Assembly (NCBI RefSeq): GCF_018141165.1
Contig: NZ_CP058557.1
Span: 1,178,001-1,242,000, forward strand
Direction: 5' to 3'
Length of the DNA: 64,000 bases
From: Alkaliphilus sp. B6464
GTDB taxonomy: Bacteria; Bacillota; Clostridia; Peptostreptococcales; Natronincolaceae
Part shown: positions 7,878-44,085 of the stretch, in pieces
Layout: each line of letters starts with the position of its first letter
How positions within the stretch are numbered: position 1 is the stretch's first letter
The notes under the pieces: model-generated
The model's database searches: none
Told to the model about the DNA's origin: nothing
What the model saw: the letters and a program-made list of their open reading frames with translations, nothing else
Translations under genes and position numbers: made by a program

Positions 7878-8150
7878 ATTTTATTTTGAGAAAAGCAAGT
7901 ATATTTAGCTGTATTAAAAAATTATATGTTAAGTTTATATAAGTTAGGGTATTTATATGACAACAAGCTAGATAAAAATAATAAGATTAATAATAAGAAT
8001 GTATTTGAGATTATTAATAGGATAATAAAAAAAATATTATTAAATGAATTATTAAAAACAAATATTTAAAGCTTTTAAACTATATAAAACTAGGACAAAT
8101 TGTAGTATAGTAAAAGATAATTAAATATATTTATCAGGTGCTTTCCACCG

Positions 8151-8235
8151 ATAAAGGCAAATCTAGTGAAAGCTAGAGACGCAAAGCTAAAGGGCCTTCC
8201 TTAGAAATAAGATGGTAGCCAGTTACCGAAAGGGG
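8151..8235 (+). ncRNA. c-di-GMP-I (GEMM-I) riboswitch
   Basis: The conserved core of the GEMM-I aptamer is present in order: AAAGGCAAA, a stem capped by a GAAA-type tetraloop (tctag-tgaaag-ctaga), GACGCAAAGC, GGGCC, then GGTAGCCAGTTACCG. The closing stem P1 pairs ctttc (8151-8155) with gaaag (8228-8232). The 3' strand of P1 overlaps the Shine-Dalgarno sequence AGGGGAG (8232-8237) of the gene starting at 8243, and no terminator lies between. Control is therefore probably at translation, with c-di-GMP binding expected to hide the ribosome site. Recognition is strong; the direction of control is inference. Confidence 0.92.
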
Positions 8236-31254: not shown

Positions 31255-32514
31255 GTGGCAGAACATGTAATAGATAATGCAAAAAAATGTTTGCAATGTA
31301 AAAATCCAAGATGTCAAAAAGGGTGTCCTATCAATACCCCTATAAAAGAAATGATCAATTTATTTTTAGAAGGAGACATTAATGGGGCTGGAAAAATTGT
31401 ATTTGAGAACAACCCATTATCTGTAGTATGCTCTTTAGTATGCCCCCATGAAAGGCAGTGTGAGGGTAGTTGTATATTAGGAATAAAATCAAGTCCTGTT
31501 AAAATAGGTGATATAGAGAACTATATTTCAGACTATAGTTTAAATTTAATAGATTTAAAACCGGAGAAAAAACGCAAAGGTAATATTGGAATAATAGGCT
31601 CTGGTCCAGCAGGTATTACTATAGCCTTACTGCTAGCCTTAAAAGGATATAATATTACAATATTTGAAGCTAAAGATAAGATAGGTGGAATGCTTAGATA
31701 CGGAATTCCGGAGTTTAGATTACCTAAAGATATTTTAGACAAAATTAAAAATAGATTAGTAGAGCTAGGTGTCGTAATTAGACCTAACGTATTAGTAGGT
31801 TCTAGAATAACCATTGAAGAGTTGTTTAGAGACGGATTTGATGCTATATTTATCGGTACAGGTGTATGGCAACCTAAAAAGCTAAATATTAAAGGTGAAG
31901 GCTTAGGACATGTTCATTTTGCAATTGACTATTTAAAAAACCCTGATGTATATAAATTAGGAAATAAGGTGTGCGTTATTGGTGGTGGAAACGTTGCAAT
32001 GGATGTAGCTAGAACAGCTATTAGAAAAGGTTCTAAAGAGGTTACTATAATGTATAGGAGAGGCACTGAAGATATGCCTGCAACTAATCATGAAATAGAA
32101 TATGCTAAGGTAGATGGAGTTAAGTTTGAGTTGTATAGGGCTCCTATTGAAATTACAGAGGAAGGTATAATTTATATTGAAACTAAGATGGTAGCTGACG
32201 AAGCTGGAGAAAGACTTGTTGCTGTAGATGGTTCTGAAAGCTTATTTGAGTGTAACTCTATTATAGTTGCAGTTAGCCAAGGACCTAGAACTAATATAAT
32301 ATCTACAACAAAAGGAATAGAGGTAAACGAAAGAGGATTAGCGATAGTAGATGAAGATGGCAGAACTACTAAAGAAGGAGTTTTTGCATCTGGGGATGTT
32401 GTTACTGGAGCGAGAACTGTTGTAGAGGCAGTAAAATATTCGAAGCATGTAGCTGAGGCTATTGATAAATATGTTAGTGAAAAATATGGGAAAAAATCTA
32501 ATAAAGTATGTTAA
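31255..32514 (+). CDS. GltD/NfnB-like NAD(P)H-dependent flavin Fe-S oxidoreductase
   Basis: A 419-residue protein of the small-subunit glutamate synthase family. N-terminal Cys-rich domain with CLQCKNPRCQKGC and CSLVCPHERQCEGSC for [4Fe-4S] clusters; FAD Rossmann fold (GIIGSGPAGITIALL); NAD(P)H Rossmann fold (VIGGGNVAMDVA); C-terminal FAD contact (GVFASGDVVTG). Without a GltB-type partner nearby it may pass electrons between NAD(P)H and ferredoxin-type partners. It should not be called a glutamate synthase with certainty. GTG start, AGGAG eight bases upstream. Confidence 0.85.
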   Translation: MAEHVIDNAKKCLQCKNPRCQKGCPINTPIKEMINLFLEGDINGAGKIVFENNPLSVVCSLVCPHERQCEGSCILGIKSSPVKIGDIENYISDYSLNLIDLKPEKKRKGNIGIIGSGPAGITIALLLALKGYNITIFEAKDKIGGMLRYGIPEFRLPKDILDKIKNRLVELGVVIRPNVLVGSRITIEELFRDGFDAIFIGTGVWQPKKLNIKGEGLGHVHFAIDYLKNPDVYKLGNKVCVIGGGNVAMDVARTAIRKGSKEVTIMYRRGTEDMPATNHEIEYAKVDGVKFELYRAPIEITEEGIIYIETKMVADEAGERLVAVDGSESLFECNSIIVAVSQGPRTNIISTTKGIEVNERGLAIVDEDGRTTKEGVFASGDVVTGARTVVEAVKYSKHVAEAIDKYVSEKYGKKSNKVC

Positions 32515-32728: not shown

Positions 32729-32779
32729 TGTCTTATAAAGCGCTATATAAAAAACATACATACAGTACCAGATGATAAC

Positions 32780-32957
32780 AACGAGAGATATCCACTAGGG
32801 TAGCCGAAGAAGCAATGTAAAAGATGCCAATTTTTTTACAGAAACTTTCAGGCAGAAGGATCGTTGTTTGATGGAACTCTGAAGAGCCCGTATATGCGGC
32901 GCCGTAGGAGAAATACATTTTAGTGTAGAAACTCTCAGGCAAAAATACAGAGGACAT
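32780..32957 (+). ncRNA. Tandem glycine riboswitch
   Basis: Two consecutive glycine aptamers. The first has GAGAGA, GCCGAAGAAGCAA, then AAACTTTCAGGCAGAAGGA and GAACTCTGAAGAGCCC. The second has CGCCGTAGGAGAAAT, GAAACTCTCAGGCAAAAATACAGAGGAC. It would switch on the glycine cleavage operon when glycine is high. The following hairpin at 33042-33063 contains GGAGGA and TCCTC arms without a U-tract. Confidence 0.95.
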
Positions 32958-33129: not shown

Positions 33130-34236
33130 ATGACCGAGCTGCGCAGAACATCCTTGTATGAAGCACACAAGAGACATGGCGGCAAATTAGTTGATTATGC
33201 AGGATGGGAAATGTCAGTACAGTTTGAGGGATTAACAGCTGAACACGAGGCAGTAAGAACAGCAGCAGGAATATTCGATGTATCTCACATGGGGGAAATT
33301 GAAGTAAAGGGGAATCAAGCAGAGGATTTTGTTCAGTACCTAGTTACAAACGACATATCTGTGCTTGAAGATAACCAAATTCTTTATACCTTCATGTGTT
33401 ACCCAGATGGAGGAGTAGTAGATGACCTTTTAGTCTATAAGTTTAACAATAATCATTACTATCTAGTAGTTAATGCAAGCAATGTTGATAAAGATTATGA
33501 GTGGATGAAGCAAAATTTAGGTAAATATGATGCAGAATTAATCAATATTTCTGAGGATGTATCAGAAATTGCTATTCAAGGGCCAAAGGCTCAAGAAATA
33601 TTGCAAGAGCTTACTGATACAGATCTTTCAGAAATAAAGTTCTTCTATTTAAAAAGAGATGTAAATATAAATGGTGCTAACTGTCTTGTTTCAAGAACAG
33701 GCTATACTGGGGAAGATGGTTTTGAAATTTACTTAGATCATAAAGATGCTAATGATTTGTGGGAAAAGCTTATGGAAGTTGGTAAAGATAAAGGATTAAG
33801 GCCAGCGGGACTTGGAGCAAGGGACACCTTGAGGTTTGAAGTTGCCCTACCTCTTTATGGCAATGAAATCTCCCAGGATATTAGTCCTCTAGAAGCGGGA
33901 TTAGGCTTTTTTGTAAAGTTAAATAAAACTGACTTTATTGGTAAGGATGCCCTTGTTAAGCAAAAACAAGAGGGGTTAAAGAGAAAACTAGTGGGATTTG
34001 AAATGAAAGAAAATGGAGTACCTAGACATGGATACGAGGTTATGGCCGATGGAAAGGTTATAGGCTTTGTAACTACTGGGTATAATTCTCCAAGTCTGAA
34101 GAAAAATATTGGTTTTGCTTTAGTTGATGCTAAGTATGCAGCCTTAGGTACACCAATAGAAATTAAAGTTAGAAAGAAAATTTTAAAGGCAGAGGTAGTT
34201 GGTAAAAAGTTTTATGATAAACATACTAAAAAATAA
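33130..34236 (+). CDS. gcvT: Glycine cleavage system T protein (aminomethyltransferase)
   Basis: Transfers the methylene of aminomethyl-lipoyl-GcvH to tetrahydrofolate, freeing ammonia. 368 residues of normal length. FDVSHMGEI, the folate-binding Asp region, TGYTGEDGFEIY and LGARDTLRFE are all present. First gene of gcvT-gcvH-gcvPA-gcvPB behind the glycine riboswitch; the gap to gcvH is 69 bases. Confidence 0.97.
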   Translation: MTELRRTSLYEAHKRHGGKLVDYAGWEMSVQFEGLTAEHEAVRTAAGIFDVSHMGEIEVKGNQAEDFVQYLVTNDISVLEDNQILYTFMCYPDGGVVDDLLVYKFNNNHYYLVVNASNVDKDYEWMKQNLGKYDAELINISEDVSEIAIQGPKAQEILQELTDTDLSEIKFFYLKRDVNINGANCLVSRTGYTGEDGFEIYLDHKDANDLWEKLMEVGKDKGLRPAGLGARDTLRFEVALPLYGNEISQDISPLEAGLGFFVKLNKTDFIGKDALVKQKQEGLKRKLVGFEMKENGVPRHGYEVMADGKVIGFVTTGYNSPSLKKNIGFALVDAKYAALGTPIEIKVRKKILKAEVVGKKFYDKHTKK

Positions 34237-34305: not shown

Positions 34306-34689
34306 ATGAAAATTGTAGAAGGACTTTTATATTCAAATGATCACGAGTGGGTAAAGGTAGAAGGAAATAAGGCTTACATTGGGGTTACAGACTATGCACA
34401 ACATGCATTAGGAGAAATCGTTTATATTGAAATGCCAGAAGTCGGGGATGAGTTTGACAAAGGTGATGTTTTTGGTGTTGTTGAGTCTGTAAAAGCAGCT
34501 TCTGACTCATATCTGCCAGTTTCAGGAAAAGTAGTTGAGATTAATGAAGCTCTAGAAGATTCTCCTGAACTTGTAAACGAAGATGCTTTTGCTAACTGGA
34601 TTTTAGCAGTTGAATTAACAGATGAATCTGAACTTGGAACATTAATGAATGATGTAGAATACAAAGAGTTTTGCGATAAGGAGGAATAG
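34306..34689 (+). CDS. gcvH: Glycine cleavage system H protein (lipoyl carrier)
   Basis: 127-residue lipoyl-domain shuttle. The lipoylated Lys sits in [20 protein letters not shown] and [19 protein letters not shown] are family signatures. GGAGG upstream. One base separates it from gcvPA. Confidence 0.97.
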
Positions 34690-34690
34690 T

Positions 34691-36031
34691 ATGCATAGGT
34701 ACATACCTAATACAGACACCGATGTCAAGCGAATGCTGGATGCTATTGGAGCTAACTCCATGGAGGATCTGTTTAAGGACATACCTAAAGGACTTCAATT
34801 AGGTAGAGAACTTAATATAGAAGGACCATATTCCGAAATGGAAATAGTTCGCCATATGAAAGACCTTAGCGGAAAAAACAAAAGTACAGATGATCTAGTT
34901 TGCTTCTTAGGGGCAGGGGCATACGATCACTATATTCCTAGCGTAATTAAACATCTAGCGGGAAGATCAGAGTTTTATACAGCTTATACTCCATATCAAC
35001 CAGAAATTAGTCAAGGTACCCTACAAGCAATATTTGAGTATCAAACTATGATCTGCAGTTTAACAGGTATGGATGTAGCGAATGCTTCTATTTATGATGG
35101 TGCGACTGCGTGTGCTGAAGCGGCAATAATGGCAGCTGATAATACAAGACGTAAATCCATTGTTGTTTCTTCAACGGTACATCCTGAAGTAAGAAATGTT
35201 TTAAAAGTATATATGGGATTTAGAAATATTGAAGTAGTCGAAGTAGATATGCAAGATGGAGTAACAGATATAGACAAATTGAAGTCTGTAGTTGGAAAAG
35301 ACACCGCAGGAGTTATAATCCAAAACCCGAACTTCTTTGGTATTATTGAAGATATAACAGAGGTTGAAAAAATTACTCATGAAAATAAAGCACTATTTAT
35401 TAATTATGTAGATCCTATTTCATTAGGAATATTAAAAAGTCCAGGAGAACTAGGTGCAGACATAGTTGTTGGAGAAGGCCAATCATTAGGAAATAGCTTA
35501 AACTTTGGTGGACCATATTTAGGCTTCTTTGCAACTACATCTAAGTTAGTTAGAAAGATTCCTGGAAGAATAGTTGGTCAGTCTGAGGATGTAGATGGTA
35601 AGAGAGCGTTTGTTCTTACATTACAGGCAAGAGAGCAACATATTAGAAGATATAAAGCTACTTCAAATATTTGTTCTAACCAAGGGTTAGTTGCTCTTAT
35701 GGCTTCTATTTATCTAACTACTTTAGGTAAAAAAGGAATTAGAGAAGTAGCTATGCAAAGTACTCAAAAAGCTCATTATGCTTTTAATGAGATTACTAAG
35801 GGTGGTAAGTTTAAACCATTATTTGATAAGCCATTCTTTAAAGAGTTTGCAGTAACTAGTAATTTAGATAGCTCTAAGGTTAATGAAGAGTTATTGAAGA
35901 ACAACATCCTTGGAGGATATGAACTTAAAAAAGAATATTCAGAGTTAGATAATGGATTGTTGTTATGTGTAACTGAGAAAAGAACTAAGGAAGAAATAGA
36001 TAAATTGGCTAGAGTAATGGAGGTGATATAA
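34691..36031 (+). CDS. gcvPA: Glycine dehydrogenase (decarboxylating) subunit 1
   Basis: N-terminal half of the split P protein, 446 residues, as usual in Firmicutes and archaea. It forms an A2B2 complex with GcvPB to decarboxylate glycine onto lipoyl-GcvH. Family motifs [19 protein letters not shown] and [10 protein letters not shown] are present. Its TAA overlaps the ATG of gcvPB by one base, which keeps the two subunits coupled. Confidence 0.97.
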
Positions 36032-37491
36032 TGAATACAGACTACACTAAACTAATCTTTGAAGTTTCTCAAGAAGGTAGAAAGGCATATAGCCTACCCA
36101 AATGTGATGTAGAAGAGGTTAATATTGAAAGTCTAATTCCGAGTGGGTTTTTAAGTGATAAGGAATTAGATTTGCCAGAGGTAAGCGAAGTAGATGTTAT
36201 TAGACATTACACTCAATTATCTAGTAAAAATTATGGAGTAGATACAGGTTTTTATCCATTAGGATCTTGTACTATGAAGTATAACCCTAAAATAAATGAA
36301 GATATGGCATCGCTTTCTGGATTTAGCAACATACATCCTTACCAACCAGTAGAAACCGTACAAGGAGCTTTAGAGCTTATGTATGGACTAGATAAAATGC
36401 TGGCAGAAGTAGCTGGTATGGAAAGAATGACTCTTCAGCCTGCAGCAGGAGCTCATGGTGAGCTTGTAGGATTAATGATAATAAAGGCTTACCATGATAA
36501 GCGGGGAGATAAGAAAAGAACAAAGATTATAGTTCCAGATTCTGCCCATGGAACAAACCCAGCTAGTGCAGCTGTTGCTGGTTTTGATATTGTGGAAGTA
36601 AAATCCGATAAAAATGGAGCTGTTGATCTAGAAAGCCTCAAGTCAGTTTTAAGTGATGAAATTGCCGGATTAATGTTAACAAATCCAAGTACTCTTGGAC
36701 TTTTTGAAACAAATATTAAAGAAATTGCAGATTTAGTTCATGAAGCAGGTGGCTTATTATATTATGACGGAGCAAATATGAACGCAATTTTAGGTATTAC
36801 TAGACCAGGAGATATGGGATTTGACGTAGTTCATTATAATATACATAAAACTTTCTCAACACCTCATGGTGGTGGAGGTCCTGGAAGTGGACCTGTAGGA
36901 GTTAGAAAAGATTTAGTAGAGTTTTTACCTTCTCCAGTTGTAGAGAAAAAAGGGGATAACTATATACTAGATTATGATAGACCACACTCTATAGGTAAAA
37001 TAAAGAGTTTTTATGGACATTTTGGAATACTTGTTAGAGCATATACTTATATACTTTCATATGGGCCCGGACTTAAAGAGGTTAGTGAAAAGGCAGTGCT
37101 TAATGCAAACTACATGATGCATAAATTAAAGGAAAAATATTATCTTCCAATAGAGCAAGTATATAAACATGAATTTGTATTAGGAGGCCTAAATGAGGAT
37201 ATACTAGGAATATCTACACTTGATATTGCGAAACGCCTACTTGATTATGGATACCATCCACCTACAATTTACTTCCCACTTATAGTAAATGAGGCAATAA
37301 TGATAGAGCCAACAGAAACTGAAAGTGTGGAGACTCTAGATAGATTTATAGATGCGATGAATAAAATTGCTGATGAAGCAAAAGAAAACCCTGAATTATT
37401 GAAGAATGCTCCTCATAACACCCATGTAAGAAGAATAGATGAAGCAAAGGCAGCTAGAAACTTAATAGTTAAGTGGGAAAAAAGTGAGTAA
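36031..37491 (+). CDS. gcvPB: Glycine dehydrogenase (decarboxylating) subunit 2
   Basis: The PLP-carrying half of the split P protein, 486 residues. PLP lysine in [28 protein letters not shown] and [12 protein letters not shown] are conserved. Last gene of the operon, with a terminator 27 bases later. Confidence 0.97.
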
Positions 37492-37517: not shown

Positions 37518-37551
37518 TTGTAACTCCCTCTTGAAAAAGAGGGAGTTACAA
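37518..37551 (+). terminator. Terminator of the gcv operon
   Basis: A perfect 15-bp stem (37518-37532 with 37537-37551) capped by a GAAA tetraloop. The tail is only weakly T-rich. Confidence 0.8.
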
Positions 37552-37656
37552 TGTTTAATAAAGAAAACTTGCTTCAGATGTAATGCTTAATTCCTATTCC
37601 TGTAAAAGCGGGAATATTAGCAGTACACTGAAGATGAAAACTAAGGAGGAAAGATA

Positions 37657-37959
37657 ATGTTGTTTGGACAAGATGGGAATTTAGAGCAAGATTTACTAAA
37701 TAGTATAAAGAAATCTATAGATGATAGAGTTGCTAGCGCTTGTGAAACGTGAGACATGGCAAGTGTACTTGCACCCGCCTGGGGCGTTAAAGAAATGACA
37801 GATCCAGATAAAGCACAAGAAATAAGAGAATACATGCAAAGCGTGGCAGGTTCTAATTTCACACTATCATCTGGTGAAACAGTAACTGTAATAAAAGGTG
37901 ATGTAAAGGAAAAGAATGGTGAGGCAATACTAATTTTTAGATACCAAATAGTAAAATAG
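37657..37959 (+). CDS. Candidate selenoprotein with a CxxU motif, family unknown
   Basis: ATG 37657 has a perfect ribosome site (AAGGAGG, seven bases away). The frame runs 31 codons, meets TGA at 37750-37752, and stays open in the same frame to TAG at 37957. Read as selenocysteine this gives 100 residues with Cys29-Glu-Thr-Sec32, a CxxU redox-type motif. The N part (DGNLEQDLLNSIKKSIDD) is helical and the C part (FTLSSGETVTVIKGDV and ILIFRYQIVK) is beta-rich. A GC-rich hairpin, CGCC-TGG-GGCG at 37776-37786, lies 23 bases after the TGA. It can be extended by ctt/aag pairs (37768-37770 with 37790-37792), in the range expected of bacterial SECIS elements. The gene lies between terminators, so it is its own unit just after the gcv operon. 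I do not recognise the family. A simple nonsense mutation remains possible. Confidence 0.6.
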
Positions 37960-37988: not shown

Positions 37989-38022
37989 ATACCCTCTGTT
38001 TATATGGCAGAGGGTATTTTTA
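37989..38022 (+). terminator. Terminator of the candidate selenoprotein gene
   Basis: ataccctctg (37989-37998) pairs with cagagggtat (38008-38017), followed by TTTTTAT. Confidence 0.9.
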
Positions 38023-40374: not shown

Positions 40375-40836
40375 TTAAATCTCTTTTAGTAAGTTAGTCA
40401 TTTCAATAGCAGTAACAGCTGCATCATAGCCTTTGTTTCCTGACTTAGTCCCTGCCCGTTCAATAGCTTGCTCGATAGTATCTGTCGTAAGCACGCCAAA
40501 TATTATAGGAATCTCTGTATCTAGGGAAACACTAGCAACGCCCTTAGTTACTTCGCTAGATACATAGTCAAAGTGAGGAGTAGCACCTCTTATAACAGCA
40601 CCAAGGCATATTATGCCATCATATCTTTCGGACTTAGCCATTTTTTTTGCCACAAGTGGGATTTCAAATGCTCCAGGCACCCAAGTAATATCAATATCCG
40701 CCTCTTCAACACCGTGACGCTTTAAGGCATCAAGTGCTCCTGATAAAAGTTTGCCTCCAATAAATTCATTAAATCTTCCTACTATAATACCGAATTTTAA
40801 TCCCTGAGAAATTAATTTACCTTCAAATATATTCAT
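40375..40836 (-). CDS. ribH: 6,7-dimethyl-8-ribityllumazine synthase
   Basis: Condenses 3,4-dihydroxybutanone 4-phosphate with the ribitylamino-pyrimidine to lumazine. 153 residues, normal. [47 protein letters not shown] (catalytic His) and [14 protein letters not shown] are all present. Last gene of ribD-ribE-ribBA-ribH; four bases from ribBA. Confidence 0.97.
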
Positions 40837-40839
40837 TAT

Positions 40840-42048
40840 TTATGCCTCCTTAAATTTCAACATATGTCCTAATTTTTCTTGTTTAGTTTTTAAATAATAA
40901 GCATTTCGCTCATTATGATTCATTTGGATGGGAACTCTTTCTATAATTTCCATGCCATATCCAGCTAATCCTGACAACTTTCTAGGATTATTAGTCATTA
41001 GTCTAATTTTTTTAACTCCAAGATCAGCTAATATTTGAGCACCGATACCATAATCTCTCATATCCTCAGGGAATCCTAGGGCTAGATTTGCTTCAACTGT
41101 ATCCATTCCCTCATCTTGAAGAGCATACGCCTTTAGCTTATTTATTAATCCTATGCCTCTACCTTCTTGACGCATATAGACTAATATTCCTCGACCTTCC
41201 TTATTAATTTGTTCCATAGCAGTAGCATATTGCTCGCCACAATCACAACGCGTAGACCCAAAAGCATCCCCGGTAAGACATTCAGAATGGACACGAACTA
41301 GGACAGGCTCTCCATCATCTACATTACCCTTCACTAAAGCAACATGATGCTCCCCATTTAATTTATTTTCATAGCCTATGATTTTGAAATCTCCGTATTT
41401 TGTGGGCATATTAGCTTCTGTTACATGTTCTATAAGCATTTCATTCTTTCTTCTATATGCAATTAAGTCAGCTATTGTAATTATTTTTAAATCATGCTCT
41501 GTTACAAAATTCATTAGTTCGGGGACTCTCGCCATAGTACCGTCTTCATTCATTATTTCACAAATTACACCGGCGGAATATAATCCAGCAAGTCTTGCTA
41601 AATCAACAGCAGCTTCTGTATGACCAGCTCTTTTTAATACGCCGCCTTTTCTTGCTTCTAATGGGAATATATGTCCTGGTTTTCTGAAGTCTGAAGCTTT
41701 CGCATCTGGGTCTAAAACTTTTTGGATTGTAAAGGCTCTTTCCTGGGCAGATATTCCTGTAGTTGTCTCAATAGCATCAATAGATACGGTGAATGCGGTT
41801 TGATGATTATCAGTATTATGCTGCACCATTTGAGGAATGCACAGATCATTTAGTCTAGTCCCAAGAATAGGCATACATATTAGCCCACGACCATATTTAG
41901 CCATAAAATTTATAGCTTCTGGAGTTACCTTTTCAGCAGCCATAAGAAGATCTCCTTCATTTTCGCGGTCTTCATCGTCTACAACTACTATAATTTTACC
42001 CTGCTTAATATCCTCAATGGCCTCTTCTATAGTGTTAAATTTGGACAT
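40840..42048 (-). CDS. ribBA: Bifunctional DHBP synthase / GTP cyclohydrolase II
   Basis: 402 residues. The N-terminal half makes 3,4-dihydroxy-2-butanone 4-phosphate from ribulose 5-phosphate ([22 protein letters not shown]). The C-terminal half opens the GTP ring ([21 protein letters not shown] with the zinc Cys residues, RQEGRGIGL). Both active sites look intact. Confidence 0.97.
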
Positions 42049-42100
42049 TTTTAATTCACTCCTTTTATTTGATGGATTACAGTGAAGATTATTTTAAACC

Positions 42101-42751
42101 TTACAAAAAACCATGGTTATTTAAAAACTCCATATCTACTTCTAATTTAGAGGGAGCCTCTTCTTTAAAGGATAGAAACCTTTCGATATATTTTCCAATC
42201 ATATCTCCCTCAAGGTTTACTTCCTCACCTATGTTTTTTGTAAGGAGAGTTGTTACTTCCTTTGTGTGGGGAATGACAGACACTCTGAAAATCTCATTAT
42301 CTACATAAGCAACTGTAAGACTAATTCCATCAATTGCAATGGAGCCTTTATATATTACATACTTTAAAATATTAGAAGGCGCCGCTATGGAAACCCAGAT
42401 AGCATTGTCTTCTCGTCTAAAATCTTTAATAATACCTACTCCATCAATATGACCACTTACTAGATGTCCACCTAAACGATCTCCTAGCATTAATGCCCTC
42501 TCTAAGTTAACCTTACTTCCAGGTTTTAAGTTATTTAAGTTAGTTTTCCTCATTGTTTCTGCCATAACATCAACTTGGAAGCTACTAGCCATAAAGGCTG
42601 TTACAGTTAGACAAACACCGTTGGTTGCAATACTATCTCCTAGTTTAATATTTTCAAGTATTTTATTAGCTTTAATAACAATACTTGCGGATTTAGCCCC
42701 ATTTAAAATCGATTGAACAGTTCCTATCTCTTCAACAAGTCCTGTAAACAA
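42101..42751 (-). CDS. ribE: Riboflavin synthase alpha chain
   Basis: Dismutates two lumazines to riboflavin. 216 residues with the two internal lumazine-binding repeats (MFTGLVEEIGTV with SIATNGVCLTV; SGHIDGVGII with SIAIDGISLTV). Four bases after ribD. Confidence 0.96.
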   Translation of the reverse strand: MFTGLVEEIGTVQSILNGAKSASIVIKANKILENIKLGDSIATNGVCLTVTAFMASSFQVDVMAETMRKTNLNNLKPGSKVNLERALMLGDRLGGHLVSGHIDGVGIIKDFRREDNAIWVSIAAPSNILKYVIYKGSIAIDGISLTVAYVDNEIFRVSVIPHTKEVTTLLTKNIGEEVNLEGDMIGKYIERFLSFKEEAPSKLEVDMEFLNNHGFL

Positions 42752-42754
42752 AGA

Positions 42755-43855
42755 CTATACCTCCTTTCTTATATAGGCTTCTATCATTACATCATCCTTA
42801 AATCTGAAAACATCTATATTTTTAAGGAATATGGCATCTTTCATATATGGAATACCCTTTCCACCAACTGGGCTTTTAGATGAGCTTCCACCTATAATCT
42901 TAGGTCCTATAAATGAAATTACCTTATCCACAATTCCTTCTGCGAGAGCTGTATAGTTTAGTGTACTTCCACCTTCTAAAAGTACACTATCAATTTTTCT
43001 CTCTCCTAATGATCTCATAAGATAGGATAAATCTACCTTATTGTTTTTAAGAGGTACAATGATGAAGTCTGCACCTAATTCTTCAATATATTTTAGTTTT
43101 TCTCTATTAGTGGCTTCCGTTGTTGCTATTATAGTTTTTGTATTATTATCACATTGTAGAACATTTGCATCTAAAGGGATGTTTCCCCTTGTATCTACAA
43201 CTATTCTAATGGGATTTTTTTTATCTATACTATCTAGCCTGGTTGTAAGTAGAGGATCATCAGCTAAAACCGTGCCTATTCCAACCATTATGGAAGTAAA
43301 TCTATGACGCAGCTCATGAACATAGCGTCTAGATTCTTCATTGGTAACCCAACGAGAATCTCCAGTATAGGATGCGATTTTACCGTCTAGGGTCATTGCT
43401 GTTTTAAGAACACAGAAGGGACGTCCTGTTGTAATAAATTTAATGAAAACTTCATTTAGCTTTTTTGCCTTATCCTCTAATACACCTATAGCTACTTCGA
43501 TCCCATGCTCTCTTAATATACTAATTCCTTTACCAGCCACAAGAGGGTTAGGGTCTTCCATGGCAACCACAACCTTTTTAATACCTTTTTTAATAATAGT
43601 GTTAACGCAGGGTGGGGTTTTTCCAAAATAAGAGCAGGGCTCTAGGGTTACATACATTGTGGCCCCTGTAACATCTTCTTTAGTATTGTTAAAGGCATTA
43701 ACCTCAGCATGAGCGTCTCCGTATTTTTTGTGATAGCCTTCGCCAATAATCCTGCCGTCTTTAACTATTACTGCTCCCACTAATGGATTAGGGCTGGTAT
43801 AACCAATACCGAGCTTTGCTAAGTCTAAAGCTCTAGCCATATATAAATAATCCAT
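42755..43855 (-). CDS. ribD: Bifunctional pyrimidine deaminase/reductase
   Basis: 366 residues. The deaminase domain has the zinc site HAEVNAF with PCSYFGKTPPC; the C-terminal reductase domain has DGKIAS, VGIGTVLADDPLLT and LEGGSTLNY. First gene of the riboflavin operon, 23 bases after the riboswitch terminator. Confidence 0.96.
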   Translation of the reverse strand: MDYLYMARALDLAKLGIGYTSPNPLVGAVIVKDGRIIGEGYHKKYGDAHAEVNAFNNTKEDVTGATMYVTLEPCSYFGKTPPCVNTIIKKGIKKVVVAMEDPNPLVAGKGISILREHGIEVAIGVLEDKAKKLNEVFIKFITTGRPFCVLKTAMTLDGKIASYTGDSRWVTNEESRRYVHELRHRFTSIMVGIGTVLADDPLLTTRLDSIDKKNPIRIVVDTRGNIPLDANVLQCDNNTKTIIATTEATNREKLKYIEELGADFIIVPLKNNKVDLSYLMRSLGERKIDSVLLEGGSTLNYTALAEGIVDKVISFIGPKIIGGSSSKSPVGGKGIPYMKDAIFLKNIDVFRFKDDVMIEAYIRKEV

Positions 43856-43911: not shown

Positions 43912-43974
43912 GGTTCCACAAATTAACCCAATAAGAACTATATAAAAATAGAACTTAAAGAGTATAATAACTTT

Positions 43975-44085
43975 TCCTTCTTTCATCCAGACTTTACTGT
44001 CGGTACTGGAATTGCACCAGTTCTGCCAAATAGGCTCGCGGACTTTACCGCCGGTAGGGACTTTCACCCTGCCCTGAAGGACATT
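43975..44085 (-). ncRNA. FMN riboswitch (RFN element)
   Basis: Reading on the minus strand, the RFN core is complete: AGGGCAGGGTGAAAGTCCC, TACCGGCGGTAAAGTCCGCGA with GCC, GCAGAACTGGTGCAATTCC, and CCGACAGTAAAGTCTGGATG, closing with GAAGGAAAA. FMN binding would favour the terminator at 43879-43911 and stop the rib operon. Confidence 0.97.

Follow-up and report, generated by a model that had tools for sequence, protein, structure and literature searches.

The DNA analysed here (the window) is a stretch of 64,000 nucleotides from Alkaliphilus sp. B6464. It contains an operon-like series of glycine cleavage (gcv) genes and, behind them, a small gene with an in-frame TGA, here referred to as prpU. 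The features of this locus are as follows (window coordinates, strand, description):

32768-32954, +, glycine riboswitch (RF03166) 5' of gcvT
33130-34236, +, gcvT (Pfam PF01571/PF08669)
34306-34689, +, gcvH, the lipoyl carrier and proposed partner of PrpU (Pfam PF01597)
34691-36031, +, gcvPA (Pfam PF02347)
36031-37491, +, gcvPB (NF003346, 788.9 bits)
37520-37549, +, 13-bp perfect inverted repeat with a GAAA loop and no T run, between gcvPB and prpU
37643-37649, +, ribosome binding site AAGGAGG, 7 nt 5' of the ATG
37657-37959, +, prpU, predicted 100-residue selenoprotein with Sec as residue 32 (C29-E-T-U32), based on the reading frame and on a TGA column in 34/34 family genes
37750-37752, +, predicted Sec codon TGA, based on the frame and the alignment of family members
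37759-37772, +, second small hairpin GCAAG-UGUA-CUUGC, past the UGA and ahead of the SECIS-like hairpin, also predicted for several relatives
37776-37786, +, putative bSECIS hairpin CGCC-UGG-GGCG (4 bp, 3-nt loop, 27 nt past the UGA)
37990-38016, +, terminator-like hairpin 3' of prpU (9 bp, then a T run), based on sequence and fold

The prpU frame on the + strand comprises 31 codons from the ATG at 37657, the TGA at 37750-37752, and 68 sense codons up to the TAG at 37957-37959. Read through the TGA, its product would be a protein of 100 residues and 11,036 Da (MLFGQDGN...ASACETUDMASVLAPAWGVKE...LIFRYQIVK). The AAGGAGG site, the ATG, the 31 codons, the in-frame TGA within C-E-T-TGA, and the 68 sense codons described in the original prediction were all verified. 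The terminator that it placed after the gene was confirmed as a terminator-like hairpin at 37990-38016 with the arms TACCCTCTG and CAGAGGGTA, followed by a T run; this hairpin is missing from the consensus scan, as its loop of 9 exceeds the scan maximum of 8.

The end of gcvPB is located 165 nt upstream of the prpU ATG on the same strand, in agreement with the predicted position beside the glycine cleavage genes, and the consensus scan lists no promoter-like site between the two genes. Judged from this arrangement, the gcv genes and prpU are likely co-transcribed in the window. The inverted repeat between them (-26 kcal/mol over 61 nt) could be a site of transcript attenuation or processing, and through it, prpU may be expressed at a lower level or separately. 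In Peptoclostridium acidaminophilum, a terminator-like repeat likewise precedes prpU (L092). A sigma-54 type activator is encoded downstream of prpU. On the other side of the operon, ahead of the glycine riboswitch, a GltD-like NAD(P)H/Fe-S (FAD/Fe-S) oxidoreductase is encoded at 31255-32514 (+), which scores below the cut-off of all NCBIfam models listed.

Relatives of the prpU product were collected by a protein search of 60 related genomes, with the gene present in 12, and by a profile search of three overlapping draws. Of the 393 genomes drawn from the order, 27 gave a match, as did 2 of the 398 drawn from the phylum and 8 of the 291 drawn from the class. The two phylum matches are the window's own genome and a genome of another class (G435), which is the single genome available for its order, and two of the eight class matches had already been seen. 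In total, the family comprises 34 genomes, the window's included, which come from the order of the window's genome, from further orders of its class, and from one other class. All 34 genes contain a single TGA at one shared column with a Cys three residues earlier, the motif being C-x-T-U in 33 members and C-x-S-U in one (L046). The identity of 27 aligned members to the window protein ranges from 34 to 96%, and residues R24, C29, U32, G43, V44, R95, and Y96 are invariant among the 28 aligned sequences. Neither Cys nor any other sense codon occurs at the TGA column among the members found. Furthermore, no Cys homologues were detected at E <= 0.001 in the 393 order, 398 phylum, and 291 class genomes (overlapping draws), in 11 gcv regions of 10 gcv-positive genomes without PrpU, or in the gcv regions of the four members that carry PrpU elsewhere. 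The original prediction had looked to homologues with either Cys or TGA at position 32 for support, and it is the TGA form that was encountered at this column in 34 of 34 cases. Downstream of the TGA, 18 of the codon changes between the window gene and L036 are synonymous and 10 non-synonymous (dN 0.106, dS 0.695), and the codons past the TGA are, by this comparison of genes, under purifying selection.

The machinery for selenocysteine insertion, which the original prediction had expected in the same genome, is present: selA, selB, selD, and tRNA-Sec were all found, within 12 kb. The selD frame (L062:171-1241, +) runs through an in-frame TGA as well (356 codons), and SelD of this genome is probably a selenoprotein itself. 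SelB is above the cut-off in all 28 member genomes tested, i.e., the members except the six found last, and is absent from 4 of the 20 non-members tested.

For bacterial SECIS elements, a published model (PMC13188914) specifies a loop of 3-9 nt with a G in the first two positions, a stem of 4-16 bp, a spacing of 16-37 nt, and an MFE of <= -7.5. The GC-rich hairpin noticed in the original prediction is indeed present at 37776-37786, 27 nt past the TGA, and the window gene fits the model with a UGG loop, 4 bp, and a spacing of 27; the value of -10.4 applies to its 32-nt sub-window, which also contains the second hairpin. The three outer pairs (CTT/AAG) gained by the proposed extension of the hairpin to 37768-37792 are separated from its stem by an internal loop; in the minimum-energy fold of the 60 nt past the TGA, this stretch is paired differently. 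The RNA tests cover 28 members, i.e., the family except the six later class members. Of these 28, 23 satisfy the model, compared with 30 of 500 TGAs picked at random in the window, with sub-window energies to which a neighbouring hairpin may contribute in members and random sites alike. In a synonymous recoding test, the average fold of the 28 genes is stronger than that of the recoded sequences (mean z -1.21), with p<0.05 in 6 of them; the window's own gene is not stronger in this test (z +0.26). RNAalifold returned no consensus structure among the members, and loop and spacing vary among the 28 (UGG at 27 in 7, GUG at 26 in 12, other combinations in 9). As SECIS evidence, the window's hairpin thus agrees with the published model and is not unusual relative to synonymous recoding. 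Because of the latter, it is weak evidence when taken alone, and the evidence from the group is good.

Since the TGA column is constant in 34/34 genes, the codons past it are under purifying selection, SelB is present in 28/28 genomes, and the window's genome has sel genes of its own, the UGA at codon 32 is almost certainly read as selenocysteine. The gene had been proposed as a CxxU selenoprotein gene, which the conserved TGA and the sel genes of the genome support. A true stop, whether it separates two short ORFs, arose by nonsense mutation, or serves a programmed truncation, is hardly credible by comparison. A 67-codon ORF is present behind the TGA, from the ATG at 37756, and the ordinary behaviour of the window gene's hairpin upon recoding would suit a stop. 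However, a single TGA shared across several families and two classes, a column free of sense codons, selection past the TGA, and complete sel machinery argue against it, and a plain nonsense mutation, which had been doubted from the start, is ruled out by the TGA in all 34 genes.

The family is not a new one, as had been assumed initially. In 2014, PrpU was named as an 11-kDa CxxU selenoprotein of Eubacterium (Peptoclostridium) acidaminophilum DSM 3953 that shares an operon with glycine decarboxylase genes (PMC4056300), and it was also named in Clostridium litorale DSM 5388 (PMC4118067). P. acidaminophilum was reported to be without dihydrolipoamide dehydrogenase (PMC4056300, PMC4118067). Genome G208 of our collection is P. 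acidaminophilum DSM 3953, as 12 kb of its second contig are 100% identical to NZ_CP007453.1. Its sole family match, L057, shares 44% identity with the window protein and is located behind gcvT-H-PA-PB-fhs, as described for PrpU; the matched part has 10,736 Da, the frame is 3 residues longer, and the motif is CATU (CETU in the window). Because size, motif, and operon agree, L057 is taken to be the protein named PrpU, and the window gene very probably belongs to the PrpU family. A new selenoprotein family is rejected, given that both genome announcements already carry the name. Like PrpU of P. acidaminophilum, the product of the window gene is a CxxU protein of about 11 kDa whose gene is linked to glycine decarboxylase genes; in contrast to that species, fhs is missing between gcvPB and prpU, and Lpd genes are present in the genome.

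In the searchable literature (subscription papers lie outside it), PrpU occurs as the name of a selenoprotein only in PMC4056300 and PMC4118067. Word searches of a 2022 and a 2026 review did not find it, and Table 1 of the 2026 review, with 119 families, lists neither PrpU nor a glycine cleavage-linked entry, although another name is possible. A 2006 list of 11 selenoproteins of Alkaliphilus metalliredigens, as far as the accessible part of that source goes, is also without PrpU. In the accessible part of their paper, the authors of deep-Sep state that the method may miss selenoproteins without Cys homologues (PMC12013277). PrpU genes have probably been called as truncated ORFs or overlooked entirely. 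The present analysis adds how widespread PrpU is, that its Sec is constant, and that it is tied to the genes of glycine cleavage and to lipoyl genes.

This selenoprotein family is not covered by any Pfam or NCBIfam model, as none of the 28 members searched has a Pfam or NCBIfam match near a curated cut-off. A plasmid search with the PrpU protein matched nothing, and the single PDB sequence match has an E of 0.77. Two other selenoproteins resemble it in part. GrdA (glycine reductase selenoprotein A, PF04723) is likewise a small CxxU selenoprotein that functions in the glycine metabolism of clostridia, but PrpU has no Pfam match to it, and the genomes carry a grdA gene apart from prpU. PrdC (TIGR04481), a CxxU selenoprotein, has been proposed, in the part of the source consulted, to pass electrons to a Stickland reductase (PMC3091704); it differs in being a large RnfC-like protein, to which PrpU shows no Pfam or NCBIfam match.

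Throughout the family, prpU is found in similar company. In 30 of 34 members, the gcv genes precede prpU on its strand, and the gene directly upstream is gcvP in 16, fhs in 7, lipA in 1, and another or none in 4 of 28 loci, and gcvP in all six later class members. The four unlinked members (G020, G154, G169, G187) have gcvT-H-P-P operons elsewhere in the genome. Downstream, 13 of 28 loci and L085 have lipB as the next gene, lplA follows in L088, and lipA is no more than 8 kb away in 13 of the 28 loci; gene names were assigned by NCBIfam on one representative each and for the remainder via BLAST clusters. A strong GcvP (>400 bits) is present in 28/28 members versus 9/16 SelB-positive non-members (Fisher 0.0003), the latter picked by kinship and not randomly, with related genomes that are not independent. 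There are nine relatives with SelB and gcv genes and without PrpU. It is likely that PrpU works with the glycine cleavage/lipoyl machinery.

Dihydrolipoyl dehydrogenase (Lpd, TIGR01350) is above the cut-off in 24 of 34 members and missing in ten (G098, G107, G143, G169, G208, G362, G807, G862, G927, G946), where at most 26 candidates per genome were scored in one of the two scans, G362 and G946 are <85% complete, and G208 (P. acidaminophilum) is narrowly under the cut-off (399.7 of 408.8 bits). For the same species, the accessible part of a 2025 paper reports no convincing gcvL (PMC12674515); a word search of that paper did not find PrpU. Lpd is missing in 10/34 members versus 0/9 SelB- and gcv-positive non-members (p = 0.089). 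In L037 and L042, lpd is located inside the gcv region too, and in G010 it follows lipA in a gcv-lipB-lipA cluster without PrpU. A role as strict replacement of Lpd is rejected by these counts; with three Lpd genes above the cut-off in the window's genome and at least one in 24/34 members, PrpU is not simply an Lpd substitute. Of the 34 members, 32 have GrdA (only partial in G012), the two misses being genomes that are 83% and 85% complete. It is also found in 16/16 SelB-positive non-members, and co-occurrence with GrdA is therefore rejected as proof.

Taken as a whole, these data are best explained by a Sec-containing PrpU that functions with the glycine cleavage system and probably serves as its electron carrier (probability roughly 0.6); for the narrower claim that it is the electron carrier for GcvH, the chances seem about even. 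SelB and tRNA-Sec would decode the UGA at codon 32, aided by the hairpin ~27 nt downstream. Once glycine has been oxidised, the dihydrolipoyl arm of GcvH would reduce the C29-x-x-U32 thiol/selenol pair, which would then hand the electrons to thioredoxin and return to the selenenylsulfide. This route could supply glycine reductase (GrdA) with electrons and would require neither a dedicated dihydrolipoyl dehydrogenase nor NAD+, and the direction of flow could reverse during glycine synthesis. Such an electron drain from dihydrolipoyl-GcvH to thioredoxin/glycine reductase fits the data and also the suggestion of the PrpU authors. A 1991 paper reportedly, going by its title, deals with a thioredoxin-elicited dihydrolipoamide dehydrogenase activity. 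PrpU is proposed here for the same step as dihydrolipoyl dehydrogenase (GcvL/Lpd), i.e., the re-oxidation of dihydrolipoyl-GcvH; the latter, however, is a large FAD/NAD flavoprotein, whereas PrpU has 11 kDa and no recognised cofactor domain. As its gene is found downstream of gcv in 30/34 hosts and always encodes Sec, PrpU would be a direct and testable candidate for the unloading of GcvH in Stickland bacteria without dihydrolipoyl dehydrogenase.

The lipoyl genes around prpU could also indicate that PrpU serves the lipoylation of GcvH, e.g., octanoyl transfer, sulfur insertion, or keeping the thiols of LipA or GcvH reduced. The adjacent lipB (13/28 loci and L085), the nearby lipA (13/28), and lplA in L088 speak for such a role, which is nevertheless unlikely: four loci with fhs upstream (L053, L057, L058, L061) are without lipB/lipA cluster genes within 8 kb, G010 has both genes in its gcv cluster and PrpU is absent, and a CxxU pair is, by established chemistry, better suited to thiol exchange than to sulfur insertion. 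It is likewise improbable that PrpU connects glycine cleavage to a partner other than thioredoxin and glycine reductase, such as the oxidoreductase at 31255-32514 or another flavoprotein. That gene precedes the riboswitch in the window, and GrdA fails to separate members from SelB-positive non-members, but only 4 of 28 loci have a counterpart of this oxidoreductase gene within 8 kb, and one of the four has it on the downstream side.

Rather improbable, too, is a protective or repair function, in which PrpU would act on the glycine cleavage complex as a peroxidase, a reductase, or a trap that captures lipoyl groups after their oxidation or alkylation. Homology to thiol oxidoreductases is known for many small CxxU selenoproteins (PMC13188914), and the gcv linkage would be compatible with such a function. 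However, the tight tie to a single pathway and Sec in 34/34 genes do not favour it, and no peroxiredoxin, glutaredoxin, or AhpD is among the weak Pfam/NCBIfam matches of the 28 members.

A two-sequence structure model of PrpU (mean pLDDT 78.9, pTM 0.62) predicts a long helix (residues 9-31) that ends at the CxxU motif and is followed by a mixed alpha/beta part. Foldseek gave no match to this model at E <= 0.001, and the best VIA-align Z of 6.4 (ribosomal protein S8) is within the range of common arrangements. Lastly, the window contains two further riboswitches, namely, a c-di-GMP-I riboswitch at 8146-8230 (+) and an FMN riboswitch at 43971-44085 (-), which is located upstream of the genes at 40375-43855; from their sequence, we take the latter to resemble a riboflavin operon.
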